The notes under the pieces: model-generated
Database searches by the model: none
Seen by the model: only the letters and a program-made list of their open reading frames with translations
What the model was told of the DNA's origin: nothing
Part shown: piece after piece, positions 43,914-48,827 of the stretch
Numbering within the stretch: position 1 is the first letter of the stretch
How the letters are laid out: each line of letters starts with the position of its first letter
Source of the DNA: Clostridia bacterium
Lineage (GTDB): Bacteria; Bacillota; Clostridia; Monoglobales; Monoglobaceae
DNA: 64,000 bases
Assembly: GCA_017456605.1 (NCBI GenBank)
Contig: JAFTJA010000013.1
Span: forward strand, 124,001-188,000
Direction of reading: 5' to 3'
Position numbers and translations under genes: made by a program

Positions 43914-45344
43914 TTAGTTTCTATATTCTGCCAAAAGCTTGTATTTGATGTTCCAGAGCTTCTGGGACAAGTCAACATAGTATTCGTGCGGGTTTTCAAA
44001 GCGCTTTACTTCGTCCCATATTTTTTCAAGCTGTTCTTCACAATGCTCCCGTATCTCTTTGAGTGATGGGGATTTATAAACGCATTTTCCCTTTTCAAAC
44101 ACCGGAACCTGAAGTTCGACCGCAGTAAAGTCAGAAATCTTTTTTCTCTTCCAAGTATTTTGCGGGTCGAAAATCTCGTATTCCTTTGAGGAATCAATTT
44201 TTTCTTCAGCCAAAGTAATAACATCGGCAATAGCCTTGCCGGTATCATTGGCAAAAAGTCTGTATACCTTTTTGAAGCACGGGTTTGTGATTTTTGCAAT
44301 GTTTTCACTGACCTTTATCTTTGGGATAATGTCGCCGTTTTTTTCAAGCGCCACCAGCTTATAAACTCCACCAAACACCGGCTCTGACCTTGACGTAATA
44401 AGCCTCTCACCAACGCCGAAGGAATCCACACATGCGCCTTGTTTCAAAATATCCTGAATGATATATTCATCAAGAGAATTTGAAATTACGATTTTCACAT
44501 CACTATATCCTGCATCATCAAGCATCTTTCTTGTCTTTTTTGTAAGATATGTGATGTCACCGCTGTCAATCCTTACGCCTTTTGGGCGAATACCCATAGG
44601 CGCAAGCACCTCATCAAAAACCCTTATAGCATTGGGAACGCCAGACTTAAGCACATTATAGGTATCAACCAAAAGTGTGCAGTCATTGGGATAAGCAAGT
44701 GCATAAGCACGAAAGGCCTCATATTCACTGTCAAAAGACTGGACCCAGCTGTGCGCCATGGTTCCCAGTGCAGGAACGCCAAACAAAACGTCAGAAATAG
44801 TACACGCAGTCCCCATAGCACCGCCGATATAAGCTGCTCTTGCACCATATATTGCACCGCCTGCCCCCTGGGCACGACGAGAGCCGAACTCCATCACCGG
44901 TCTGCCCTCTGCCGCACGGACAATACGGTTGCATTTTGTGGCAATGAGACTCTGGTGGTTTATGGTAAGAAGCAGCATTGTCTCGATAAACTGCGCCTGA
45001 AGGAGCGGACCTCTCACCGTGAGTATTGGCTCATTGGGAAAAATCGGTGTTCCCTCAGGAATCGCCCAGACATCACAGGAGAACTCAAAAGTTTCAAGAT
45101 AGTCCAAAAACTCGTCGCAAAAGAGCTTTTTATCCCTCAAAAATTCAATGTCCTCACGAGAAAATTTGAGATTTTCAAGATATTCGATGACCTGCTCAAC
45201 ACCCGCCATAATAGCAAAGCCAGCATTGTCCGGAACCTTTCTAAAAAACAAATCAAAGTATGCAATTTCGTCTTGCATACCGTTTTTCAAATAACCGTTT
45301 GCCATAGTTATTTCATAAAAATCAGTAAGTAAAGTATAATTCAT
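43914..45344 (-). CDS. pncB: Nicotinate phosphoribosyltransferase
   Basis: The 476-residue enzyme joins nicotinate and PRPP to nicotinate mononucleotide for NAD salvage. Seen: 'LLTDFYEITMANGYLKNGMQ' at the start, 'VMEFGSRRAQGAGGAIYGAR' with the substrate-binding Arg residues, 'TMAHSWVQSFDSEYEAFRAY' with the catalytic His, and 'GVRIDSGDITYLTKKTRKML'. Length is typical of the Firmicutes form. It precedes the PRPP synthetase gene by about 100 nt, with an independent promoter for each. Confidence 0.95.
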   Translation of the reverse strand: MNYTLLTDFYEITMANGYLKNGMQDEIAYFDLFFRKVPDNAGFAIMAGVEQVIEYLENLKFSREDIEFLRDKKLFCDEFLDYLETFEFSCDVWAIPEGTPIFPNEPILTVRGPLLQAQFIETMLLLTINHQSLIATKCNRIVRAAEGRPVMEFGSRRAQGAGGAIYGARAAYIGGAMGTACTISDVLFGVPALGTMAHSWVQSFDSEYEAFRAYALAYPNDCTLLVDTYNVLKSGVPNAIRVFDEVLAPMGIRPKGVRIDSGDITYLTKKTRKMLDDAGYSDVKIVISNSLDEYIIQDILKQGACVDSFGVGERLITSRSEPVFGGVYKLVALEKNGDIIPKIKVSENIAKITNPCFKKVYRLFANDTGKAIADVITLAEEKIDSSKEYEIFDPQNTWKRKKISDFTAVELQVPVFEKGKCVYKSPSLKEIREHCEEQLEKIWDEVKRFENPHEYYVDLSQKLWNIKYKLLAEYRN

Positions 45345-45490: not shown

Positions 45491-45875
45491 CATTATCCAT
45501 CACAAGGATATAGATCGATAGCAGATACTTTGCTTAATATGTATGGATAGATTGTATCGGATATATCTGTATAGAAATCAATGAAACGACTTAGAATATC
45601 GGGATATGTACGAAGACAAAAAAATCCTGAAGCCAATGGTTCAGAAAACAATAGATATGCAAATATATTAAATAGAGAATTTTATGCAGAAAGACCTACG
45701 CAAAAGGTAGTAACAGATGTAACATACATGAAGCATAAGGGTAAGTGGCATTCATCAGCCGGTTATTGTAACCTACTTAAATCATACAACGTAATCCAAA
45801 GCATGTCAAAAGCAGAAACACCAAGAGATAATGCAGTTATCGAATCTTTCTTTGAAAGATTCAAAGATGTTCTCC
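45491..45875 (+). pseudogene. Decayed IS3-family transposase (OrfB) fragment
   Basis: The plus strand reads H-Y-P-S-Q-G-Y-R-S-I-A-D..., then 'MKRLRISGYVRRQKNPEANG', 'RPTQKVVTDVTYMKHKGKW' and 'LLKSYNVIQSMSKAETPRDN' followed by A-V-I-E-S-F-F-E-R-F-K. All are parts of an IS3/IS150-type DDE transposase. The frame has TAG codons at 45548-45550 and 45572-45574. A large in-frame deletion joins the first catalytic Asp region (V-T-D-V-T-Y) straight to H-S-S-A-G, so the second Asp is missing. No terminal inverted repeats were identified. The 3' end merges into a truncated membrane-protein gene near 45870. Confidence 0.8.
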
Positions 45876-46040
45876 GTTCACAAACTTTGAGGCGATACCC
45901 GCTATGTAACCGAAAAATATGAGTCAAAGGAACGCAAGCCTTTTGCCCTTTGTCGTTCTTTCGCTATATGATTTTATCTCATTCAGCGGCCACGATGCAC
46001 CAAAACTTACGACCATTAGAATTTCCAAAAGCTCTGCCAT
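45870..46040 (-). pseudogene. Truncated small membrane protein gene (PQ-loop-like N-terminus)
   Basis: Behind AAAGGAGAG and ATG at 46040 the minus strand encodes 'MAELLEILMVVSFGASWPLN', E-I-K-S-Y-S-E-R-T-T-K-G-K-R-L-A-F-L, a TGA stop (45924-45926), then in the same frame L-I-F-F-G-Y-I-A-G-I-A-S-K-F-V-N. This resembles the first two helices of small PQ-loop/MtN3-like membrane proteins of Clostridia (recognised by pattern only). The rest is replaced by the IS3 remnant. The gene is broken by both a nonsense codon and loss of its 3' part. Confidence 0.6.
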
Positions 46041-46126: not shown

Positions 46127-48745
46127 TTAATCCACAAGTCCAAGCTCATCAAGCTTTTCACGCAAATTCCTCAAAAAATTCGGGTCTTCGCTTTTTATGT
46201 TATACCGAAAAACAATCTCGCGCACACTTTCTTCAACTCTTGTTATATCCTCCAAAAGTGCTTTCGCCGGCATACGAAATGCGCCGCTCCCGAAAATGAT
46301 AAGCTGTTCAAGTCCGTCTGACGTCGCAACCGTAACCTTATAATTTCTGCTCAAAATCTTGGCGGTTTTTTCAATATAAGCATCAGCCGTTTGCGCTTCT
46401 TTTGTATAAACAACAGTTACTCCGTCGACTTTCTCTACCTCACCGGGGTTTCCCTTCACCTTGTATGCATCAAAAACAATTATAATTTCACATTCCTTGA
46501 AAATCTTGTAGGAAGAAAGTCTCTCAACAAGCTTACTCCTTGCCGCATCCAGATTTTCTTTTGAAATTTCTTTCAGCTCATCCCAAGCAAAAATGACATT
46601 GTATCCGTCAACTAAAAGATACTCATTGTCAAAAGTTTTTTCCTTCGGTCGATATTCTTTTTTCTGGACATTTGCCTTTGGCGTCCGCAAAATATGATTT
46701 GGATTTTTCCGTTCGATTTTGCCGTAGGTTTTTTCAAAAATTTTCATCAGCTCTTCGTCTGACGCAATGCTTTCTTGACTTCGTTTGGCAAAAGTTTCTG
46801 TTTTTTCTGTCTTTTTGGGTTTCAAAATACTTTCAAGATGCATATAATTTTTGACTTCATCCCATTTCACATTGAAGCCCGCACCATGGTCACAAAATAC
46901 CGAATCAGCCGTGTTTTCAACATCTGCATCGGCATCATATCCAATAAGGTCAACAACAGCATCAGCATTTTTACAAGGACCATAGCCACTGAATTTACAG
47001 CTGAGCTTTCCAAGTCCGTGGGTATAACCCACAAGTTCTGCCTGATAGTTCATGATTGAATCGGCAGCCACAGTACCGGAAAGCTTTGTCGTGTCACCCC
47101 GGGTTTCGGGCGCACCGAAATTGGCACCCATCAAATCAAGGTCCGTCATTGCCTTCCCCACATTTTCTCTGGGTATCTGGAGAACAAAATCATAATATGG
47201 CTCAAGCAATATGCTTTCAGCATGGCGAAGCCCGTTGCGCACCGCCCGGTATGTTGCCTGACGGAAATCGCCGCCCTCGGTGTGCTTTTGGTGTGCCCTG
47301 CCGGATTTCAATGTTATCCGTATATCCGTAATTGGTGAGCCCGTAAGAACACCCAAATGGGACTTTTCCATAAGATGCGTCATCACAAGTCTTTGCCAGT
47401 TCTTGTCAAGTTCATCCTCACTGCAATCGGTTGCAAACTCAATTCCTGCACCTCTTTCAAGAGGTTCGAGCAAAAGATGTACCTCGGCATAATGCCTGAG
47501 GGGTTCATAATGACCTACACCCTCTACCCTGTTTTTTATGGTCTCCTTGTATATAATCCTGCCCTGCTCAAAACTCACATCCATATCAAACCGTTTGAGA
47601 ATAAGGGCTTTCAAAACCTCCAGCTGAATTTCGCCCATAACCTTCAGCTGAATTTCACCAAAGCGTTCGTTCCACACCACATCAAGCTGTGTTTCTTCCT
47701 GTTGAAGAAGCCTTAGATTTGAAAGCGCAACTGATACGTCGATACCTTTCGGCAATTTCACGCTGTAATTGAAAATGGGTTCTGCCGTGAGCTTTTCTGC
47801 ATTACATTCAAACCCTAAACCCTGTCCTGCAAATGTTTTGGCGGGACCCACAACCGCACACACCATGCCACATTCTGCAGCGCTTACATTTTTATATTTT
47901 TCGCCGGAATAGATTCGTATTTCATTGACTTTTTCTCCTGCTCCGTCGTTTTTGATGACATCTCTTACTTTAAGTTCGCCGCCGGTTATTTTCATAAAGG
48001 TAAGGCGTGCACCCCGTTCATCCTGGCTTATTTTGAAAACTTTTGCCCCAAAATCCTGAATTTTCCGACTCTGTTTTGTAAGCCCCAAAAACGCATCAAA
48101 AAATTCCCGGACGCCTTCGGTCTTCAGCGCCGAACCCCCAAAGCACGGAAAGATATTCCTCTTGCAAATTGCCATCTTCAAAAGTTCCTGAGAAATTTCC
48201 CCTGTTTCAAGGTAACTTTTCATCAGTTTCTCATCGCATACAGCAATGTTTTCATATAAATTATTTTTATCGCTGTCGGCAAAATCTACGAAATTTTCAC
48301 CAAACTCATCCTTCAGTTCATCAATAACCTGACGCTTGTCCGCACCACTCAAATCCAGCTTGTTTATAAAAACAAAGGTTGGTATATTATATTTTGAAAG
48401 CAAGCTCCAAAGAGTTCTTGTATGGCTTTGAATTCCGTCAGTTCCGCTTATCACCAAAATAGCATAGTCAAGGACAGCAAAAGTCCGTTCTGTCTCCGCT
48501 GAAAAATCAGTGTGTCCCGGAGTGTCAAGAAGGGTTATTGTCATATCAGGGCACTCAATAACTGCCTGTTTTGAAAAAATTGTTATTCCTCTTTTTCGCT
48601 CCATCTCATCTGTATCGAGAAAGGCGTTTCCGGCATCAACTCTACCAAGGCTTCGCGTCATCCCTGCACAAAAAAGCAACCCCTCCGACAGAGTGGTTTT
48701 TCCCGCGTCAACGTGTGCAAAAATCCCTGCAGTAATTCTGTCCAT
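46127..48745 (-). CDS. TetM/EF-G-like ribosomal GTPase fused to a C-terminal NYN (Rae1/YacP-like) endoribonuclease domain
   Basis: This 872-residue protein has two parts. Residues 1 to about 640 form a ribosomal-protection-type translational GTPase: G1 A-H-V-D-A-G-K-T (10-17), R-G-I-T-I (52-56), G3 D-T-P-G-H (74-78), G4 N-K-L-D (128-131), then EF-G-like domains II-V ('HLLLEPLERGAGIEFATDCS', 'GGDFRQATYRAVRNGLRHAE'). After a charged linker, residues 707-840 match the NYN/PIN-like nuclease Rae1 (YacP): L-L-V-D713-G-Y-N, V-F-D759-A, T-K-E-A-Q-T-A-D788, A-T-S-D810. The four acidic residues expected for metal-dependent cleavage are all present. Rae1 cuts mRNA in the ribosomal A site in B. subtilis; TetM binds there to expel tetracycline. 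The natural inference is a factor that binds the A site and cuts mRNA. Tetracycline resistance is also possible. Confidence 0.9.
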   Translation of the reverse strand: MDRITAGIFAHVDAGKTTLSEGLLFCAGMTRSLGRVDAGNAFLDTDEMERKRGITIFSKQAVIECPDMTITLLDTPGHTDFSAETERTFAVLDYAILVISGTDGIQSHTRTLWSLLSKYNIPTFVFINKLDLSGADKRQVIDELKDEFGENFVDFADSDKNNLYENIAVCDEKLMKSYLETGEISQELLKMAICKRNIFPCFGGSALKTEGVREFFDAFLGLTKQSRKIQDFGAKVFKISQDERGARLTFMKITGGELKVRDVIKNDGAGEKVNEIRIYSGEKYKNVSAAECGMVCAVVGPAKTFAGQGLGFECNAEKLTAEPIFNYSVKLPKGIDVSVALSNLRLLQQEETQLDVVWNERFGEIQLKVMGEIQLEVLKALILKRFDMDVSFEQGRIIYKETIKNRVEGVGHYEPLRHYAEVHLLLEPLERGAGIEFATDCSEDELDKNWQRLVMTHLMEKSHLGVLTGSPITDIRITLKSGRAHQKHTEGGDFRQATYRAVRNGLRHAESILLEPYYDFVLQIPRENVGKAMTDLDLMGANFGAPETRGDTTKLSGTVAADSIMNYQAELVGYTHGLGKLSCKFSGYGPCKNADAVVDLIGYDADADVENTADSVFCDHGAGFNVKWDEVKNYMHLESILKPKKTEKTETFAKRSQESIASDEELMKIFEKTYGKIERKNPNHILRTPKANVQKKEYRPKEKTFDNEYLLVDGYNVIFAWDELKEISKENLDAARSKLVERLSSYKIFKECEIIIVFDAYKVKGNPGEVEKVDGVTVVYTKEAQTADAYIEKTAKILSRNYKVTVATSDGLEQLIIFGSGAFRMPAKALLEDITRVEESVREIVFRYNIKSEDPNFLRNLREKLDELGLVD

Positions 48746-48797
48746 AATACCTCCCCCTGACCAAATAATACTTTTTGTATAATTTTATCATATTTTA

Positions 48798-48827
48798 TTG
48801 ACTTTGTCCACCTGTATATTGTAAAAT
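48798..48827 (+). promoter_or_regulatory. Probable promoter of the lipoprotein gene
   Basis: TTGACT, 18 nt, TAAAAT on the plus strand, about 100 nt before the start codon. Confidence 0.45.

Follow-up and report, generated by a model that had tools for sequence, protein, structure and literature searches.

A translational GTPase fused to a Rae1-type nuclease domain has displaced the separate Rae1 protein in Clostridia

Organisation of the gene and its product

The stretch of DNA analysed here (the window, 64,000 nucleotides from a Clostridia bacterium) carries on its minus strand, at 46127–48745, a single frame of 872 codons plus stop, in which a GTPase is followed by an NYN domain (Table 1). 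An earlier note on this DNA had described the frame as uninterrupted, without naming its strand, and had recognised in it a complete GTPase with intact G1, G3 and G4 motifs. Both observations are real: five EF-G/Tet-type domains are placed by Pfam within residues 4–593, and GTP_EFTU, EFG_IV and NYN_YacP are matched in one chain. The G1 and G3 residues are invariant across 58 aligned fusions. In a full-length model based on the alignment of 58 sequences (mean pLDDT 84.4), residues 1–604 match the fold of ribosome-bound EF-G.

Table 1. Features of the fusion gene and its product (window coordinates)
Feature	Residues	Position	Strand	Basis or remark
G domain	4-221	48083..48736	-	Pfam GTP_EFTU; P-loop AHVDAGKT, DTPGH (catalytic-type His78), NKLD
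Domain II	233-307	47825..48049	-	Pfam EF-G_D2
Domain III	321-393	47567..47785	-	Pfam EFG_III, 24.6 bits, slightly below the cut-off of 27; EF-G fold in model
Domain IV	395-509	47219..47563	-	Pfam EFG_IV
Domain IV loop I, VEGVGHYEPLRHYAEVH	407-423	47477..47527	-	Family-diagnostic
Domain IV loop III, SGRAHQKHTEGGDFR	481-495	47261..47305	-	Family-diagnostic; Tet has YGLYYSPVSTPADFR and EF-G DGSYHEVDSSEMAF there
Domain V	513-593	46967..47209	-	Pfam EFG_C
C-terminal extension, ENTADSVFCDHGAGFNVKW	594-640	46826..46966	-	Shared by fused and short members, lacking in Tet and EF-G
Variable low-confidence linker	646-706	46628..46810	-	pLDDT <50 at 647-662 and 678-702
Conserved helix within linker, DEELMKIFEKTYG	663-675	46721..46759	-	Consensus DxELxxIFERTYG; predicted helix
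NYN/Rae1-type endoribonuclease domain	707-852	46190..46627	-	Pfam NYN_YacP (710-851), alignment, fold match
D713 = Rae1 D7	713	46607..46609	-	121/121 fused, 31/31 separate
D759 = Rae1 D53	759	46469..46471	-	121/121 fused, 31/31 separate
D788 = Rae1 D81	788	46382..46384	-	121/121 fused, 31/31 separate
D810 = Rae1 D104	810	46316..46318	-	121/121 fused, 31/31 separate
Promoter-like site TGGACA-17-TAAAAT		48782..48810	-	About 37 bases before start codon; consensus match only
Purine-rich ribosome-binding site AGGGGGAGG before ATG		48750..48758	-	Sequence

The linker between the halves has an amino acid identity of 0.69, compared with 0.85 in the flanking domains. Within it, the helix consensus is kept in 52–58 of 58 sequences at most positions, the rest of the linker being variable; this 13-residue helix is likely a docking element. 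Against the nearest relative, a member of the same genus, the GTPase has a dN/dS of 0.067 and the NYN domain one of 0.077. Therefore, both halves are under purifying selection and are kept by it. An assembly join, which the earlier note had named as a possible source of the frame, or a frameshift artefact can be dismissed, since many independent assemblies, some of them single-contig genomes, contain orthologous fusions with 51–84% identity, and the fusion is present in 136 of the 393 sampled genomes of the class. No Rfam match indicating an RNA leader was found near the fusion gene. Between this gene and a nicotinate phosphoribosyltransferase gene (43914–45344) lies an integrase-core transposase fragment (45581–45922, a weak rve_3 match).

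The NYN half is of the Rae1 type

NYN_YacP matches the C-terminal domain with an E value of 3e-49 and 167.6 bits, the cut-off being 24.6 bits, which agrees with the YacP/Rae1 assignment of the earlier note. The four acidic residues which that note had seen in a Rae1/YacP pattern do align with D7, D53, D81 and D104 of Bacillus subtilis Rae1, and the alignment has equivalents of all four in each of 121 fused and 31 separate NYN sequences. A model of residues 657–872 (pLDDT 86.5) matches Rae1 (5mq9) with Z 20.1 and an rmsd of 2.6 over 143 aligned residues, whereas the second-best structural family reaches only Z 8.6. Judged by the residue-by-residue match to Rae1 together with the fold match, the four aspartates should cluster in space. 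With this fold and four invariant aspartates, the nuclease belongs to the Rae1 type and is not a generic one.

For B. subtilis, Rae1 has been described as an endoribonuclease working in the A site, and its gene shares both a transcript and a pathway with rlmB (yacO) (PMC6613710). A comparable setting is seen for separate rae1 genes in our sample, with the operon mrnC-rlmB-rae1-sigH in genome G320, rlmB-rae1-sigH in G284 and a position behind mrnC-rlmB in G100. Here, instead of a free protein encoded between rlmB and sigH, the NYN domain is fused, and in fusion genomes that slot is empty or decayed.

The GTPase half stands apart from Tet proteins and EF-G

In EF-G and TetM, domain IV is the part that enters the A site, and the domain-IV tip loops of Tet proteins and EF-G act there. 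In this family both loops are replaced. The strongly conserved motifs GxGH[YF]EPLRHYAEV and G[RK]AHxKHTEGGDFR stand in their place, the counterpart being YGLYYSPVSTPADFR in TetO and GSYHEVDSSEMAF in EF-G; the Tet loop III of the type YSPVSTPADFR is replaced by GRAHQKHTEGGDFR, and loop III is strongly conserved in fused forms and in NYN-less relatives alike. Furthermore, domain V is followed by an extension of about 47 residues (HGAGFxVKW), which Tet proteins and EF-G lack. The sequence is 28–31% identical to the phage-borne Tet(W), Tet(M) and Tet(O). Its best NCBIfam match is tet_protect, with 409 bits below the cut-off of 775 (two NYN-less relatives score 468 and 380 bits), and the EF-G model is matched with a score of 290, not reaching its cut-off of 659. 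In a tree of 62 GTPases the family lies on one side of a branch with support 100/99, and Tet proteins and EF-G on the other. Such a tree had been proposed in the earlier note as a check, and it places the family outside the Tet clade. The label of a TetM-type ribosomal protection protein thus finds no support: with distinctive tip loops, an extension of its own and a position in another clade, the GTPase half is not a true Tet protein. The relatives searched retain EF-G-like genes of about 700 residues in addition to the fusion.

These data also bear on the reading suggested in 2015 by Atkinson (PMC4342817), namely a tetracycline-resistance ribosomal protection protein with an RNase, in which the GTPase would dislodge the drug and the NYN domain assist. 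NCBI names some members as TetM/TetW/TetO/TetS family, in line with the best NCBIfam match, and a triple mutant of Tet(M), S508A/P509A/V510A, remains active, so that the loop sequence alone is not decisive (PMC4750697). However, the tet_protect score remains far from its cut-off, the differing tip loop III is strongly conserved, and the clade is a separate one. Moreover, the fusion is present in only 2 of 1,246 matching plasmid records (plasmid-typed, 252 and 518 kb), there is no resistance neighbourhood, and the promoter-like site, a consensus match, would leave a 5' leader too short for an attenuator of the Tet(M) type. We consider drug protection very unlikely.

A mobile resistance gene was also rejected as the general picture, because no shared mobile or resistance neighbourhood was found. 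A role in anti-phage defence was discarded, as no PADLOC model matched. Among 80 named loci no conserved operon partner of the fusion was detected; in genus g43 (L236–L239), four of five genomes read have a dihydrouridine-synthase-like gene immediately after the fusion. Two unannotated faecal phage records (MT835563.1:5424-7958 and MT835514.1:15294-17723) match the fusion over 94–95% of its length with 52.5% and 48.7% identity, which may reflect either bacterial contamination or prophage cargo.

Short forms and the origin of the fusion

Relatives without the NYN domain, here called short forms, have about 650 residues and end after the extension; they go by the name 'translation factor GTPase family protein'. 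In the tree of 62 GTPases the fused forms make up one group (100/99), next to which short forms of Clostridium and others group together. Three short forms of the Lactobacillales type are nested inside the fused group, and for this reason they point to a later loss of the NYN domain. One apparent short form (G042, L029) was discarded because the contig ends inside the gene. NYN-less GTPases also occur on megaplasmids of Ligilactobacillus salivarius (L134:5529-7920). In the one megaplasmid read, its neighbours are rpsN, coding for ribosomal protein S14, and a gene putatively involved in metal homeostasis; a connection with zinc limitation is conceivable.

In the NYN tree, the fused domains form one clade (100/100), which includes two separate NYN proteins (G250 and G265). 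Either the two arose by splitting of a fusion, or they are related to the donor. Their genes (L197:3287-3808 and L198:3166-3681) stand apart from the short-form GTPase, which is encoded elsewhere in both genomes. The one of G265 adjoins sigH and so may represent the donor lineage of the fusion. To judge from the two trees, of which the NYN tree is built on few columns, the pattern looks like a single origin of the fusion.

Distribution and exclusion of separate Rae1

The sample comprised 393 genomes of the class; apart from the window's own genome, each was at least 90% complete. The fusion was found in 136 of them, spanning 26 families, a short form in 28 (21 of these with a separate Rae1), Rae1 alone in 93 and none of the three in 136. 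The 150 NYN matches listed fall cleanly into frames of 169–216 and of 313–1190 residues, in full agreement with this classification. Second NYN matches in G166, G217 and G249 were discarded, being weak fragments that score below the cut-off, and those in G400 are a rae1 remnant. In two genomes (L194 in G232 and L154 in G245) the GTPase half has frame breaks (285+540 and 397+293 codons), possibly pseudogenes or assembly errors.

An intact separate Rae1 is present in only one of the 136 fusion genomes (G320), but in 114 of the 257 genomes without fusion. Fisher's test gives p 6e-25, a value that is uncorrected for kinship and, because of shared ancestry, overstates the evidence. Since 7 of the 28 short-form genomes have no Rae1, the GTPase is of some use without the nuclease; and since fusion, short form and Rae1 are all missing from 136 of 393 genomes, some members of the class can do without the function.

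These numbers are relevant to the view that two independent activities merely share one gene, the NYN domain being an ordinary Rae1 and the GTPase doing something else at the ribosome. NYN-less GTPases exist both with and without Rae1, a separate Rae1 works without such a GTPase, and the Lactobacillales members have lost the NYN domain. Against this, the two domains are fused throughout 26 families with both halves under selection, splits are rare, and the linker contains a conserved helix. Independent activities therefore appear improbable to us.

Decayed rae1 genes in the ancestral slot

The gene rlmB was located in 50 genomes, 48 of them with the fusion; where sigH does not adjoin rlmB, as in the window's own genome, the slot carries no information. 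The two genes have remained neighbours in 29 fusion genomes, with no intact rae1 between them. Seven of these 29 slots (G072, G400, G144, G376, G123, G334 and G200) contain rae1-like remnants in the right orientation, scoring 25–70 bits. As a control, 1,160 dinucleotide-preserving shuffles of the same slots gave a maximum of 23.5 bits, and reversed or opposite-strand slots stayed below 20 bits. The remnants are found at L213 (G072), L250, L244, L243, L248, L206 and L246. That of G072 covers most of the rae1 gene, with in-frame stops and frameshifts, and has lost the equivalents of D81 and D104.

Different states can be seen within single genera. In g43, G100 has rae1 without the fusion, G072 has the fusion and a pseudogene, and several genomes have the fusion only; in g173, both are intact in G320, G376 has the fusion and a remnant, and two genomes have the fusion only. 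The fused NYN domains of these families sit in the fused clade of the NYN tree, apart from the separate Rae1s of G320 and G100. Because they do not group with the resident Rae1s, the fusion came from elsewhere, probably by horizontal transfer, whereupon the resident rae1 decayed.

The fusion has thus displaced the separate Rae1, for which the fossils in the slot are a stronger argument than the Fisher p value. This replacement is the best available evidence on function, and on its account the NYN half probably still does the work of Rae1. Exclusion and decay establish that the nuclease was replaced; they are not proof that the GTPase drives it. A wider reading, which includes one fusion event, its spread through gut Clostridia and several independent replacements of an ancestral free Rae1, falls just short of what we would call probable.

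The displacement has a bearing on the likely substrate as well. A ribosome-bound processing factor for rRNA or tRNA could be envisaged, the GTPase docking the NYN domain so that it cuts structural RNA: the original proposal for the domain was maturation of rRNA and tRNA, and an rRNA RNase activity was put forward for NYN-bearing Tet proteins in the 2015 study (PMC4342817). But for Rae1, the partner that was replaced, mRNA in the A site is the substrate described, and neither the active site nor the Rae1 signature residues have changed, so that structural RNA is an unlikely target.

Proposed mode of action

We consider it reasonably probable that the protein is a GTP-switched, ribosome-delivered endoribonuclease in the role of Rae1, cutting mRNA on stalled ribosomes. 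Delivery is proposed because the GTPase half has the fold of factors which enter the A site, where Rae1 is described as acting. The EF-G-like half would bind the ribosome at the factor site in its GTP form, and the family-specific tip of domain IV would probe the empty A site of a stalled or paused ribosome. Upon GTP hydrolysis domain IV would withdraw and free the A site, and the NYN domain, tethered by the linker of about 60 residues, could enter and cut the mRNA, which would open the way to mRNA decay and ribosome rescue. Ribosome binding, A-site entry, mRNA cleavage, the order of these steps and their trigger are inferred. Since the A site is regarded as the place of action of both domain IV and Rae1, domain IV and the NYN domain would compete for it; they would have to take turns, unless the NYN domain cuts next to the A site. 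With its different tip loops, the protein may also occupy a ribosomal site that is not exactly that of EF-G and Tet proteins.

The earlier note had considered a factor for ribosome rescue, mRNA decay or antibiotic response. A link to ribosome-dependent mRNA decay gains from the near-perfect exclusion of Rae1 and the decay of rae1; the antibiotic response finds no such context.

By displacing Rae1, this natural fusion connects a translational GTPase with mRNA decay in the A site. It bears on the access of Rae1 to paused ribosomes and on whether a GTPase can hand a nuclease into the A site. Point mutations in this one protein would allow nucleotide state, ribosome state and cleavage to be studied separately. 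Among gut Clostridia the gene is common, and the annotation of some members as tetracycline resistance may lead to false resistance calls in microbiome surveys.

Comparison with known systems

With elongation factor G the protein shares domain plan and fold, but the tip loops are replaced. Tet(M), Tet(O) and Tet(W) have the same five-domain plan and GTPase motifs; they differ by their low identity (28–31%), other domain-IV tip loops and a separate clade, and the fusion has in addition the C-terminal extension and the chromosomal distribution of a core gene. The short form of Clostridium and others, a sister clade, possesses the same tip loops and extension, but stops at about 650 residues. Rae1/YacP of B. 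subtilis (PDB 5MQ8, 5MQ9) has the NYN fold and all four active-site aspartates in common with the fused domain, in which equivalents of W15, R30, Y40, T79-A80-D81 and Q108 are also present. Rae1 itself, however, is free, has about 170 residues and is encoded next to rlmB, whereas the domain described here forms the C-terminal part of a GTPase whose gene lies at an unrelated locus.

The closest precedent is one passage in Atkinson 2015 (BMC Genomics 16:78; PMC4342817), which reports NYN-bearing Tet proteins in ten Clostridiales species as members of the Tet subfamily and a possible new resistance mechanism, and proposes their rRNA RNase activity for test. Likened by description, these consist of an EF-G/Tet-type GTPase followed by a YacP-like NYN domain, also in Clostridiales, and the protein of the window very probably belongs to this group. 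The earlier note had mentioned 'Tet-like' proteins without a functional study. Indeed, a search of the open literature, apart from the Rae1 papers of 2017 (PMC5412759) and 2018 (PMC6152456), found no functional work on the fusion, although the fusion itself has been in print since 2015. The architecture is therefore already known. New are the removal of the family from Tet, the sister group of short forms, the pattern of a single origin, the breadth of the fusion, and the displacement and fossilisation of Rae1. Where ten species within Tet had been described, we find a family outside Tet, which is present in 136 of 393 genomes and displaces Rae1.
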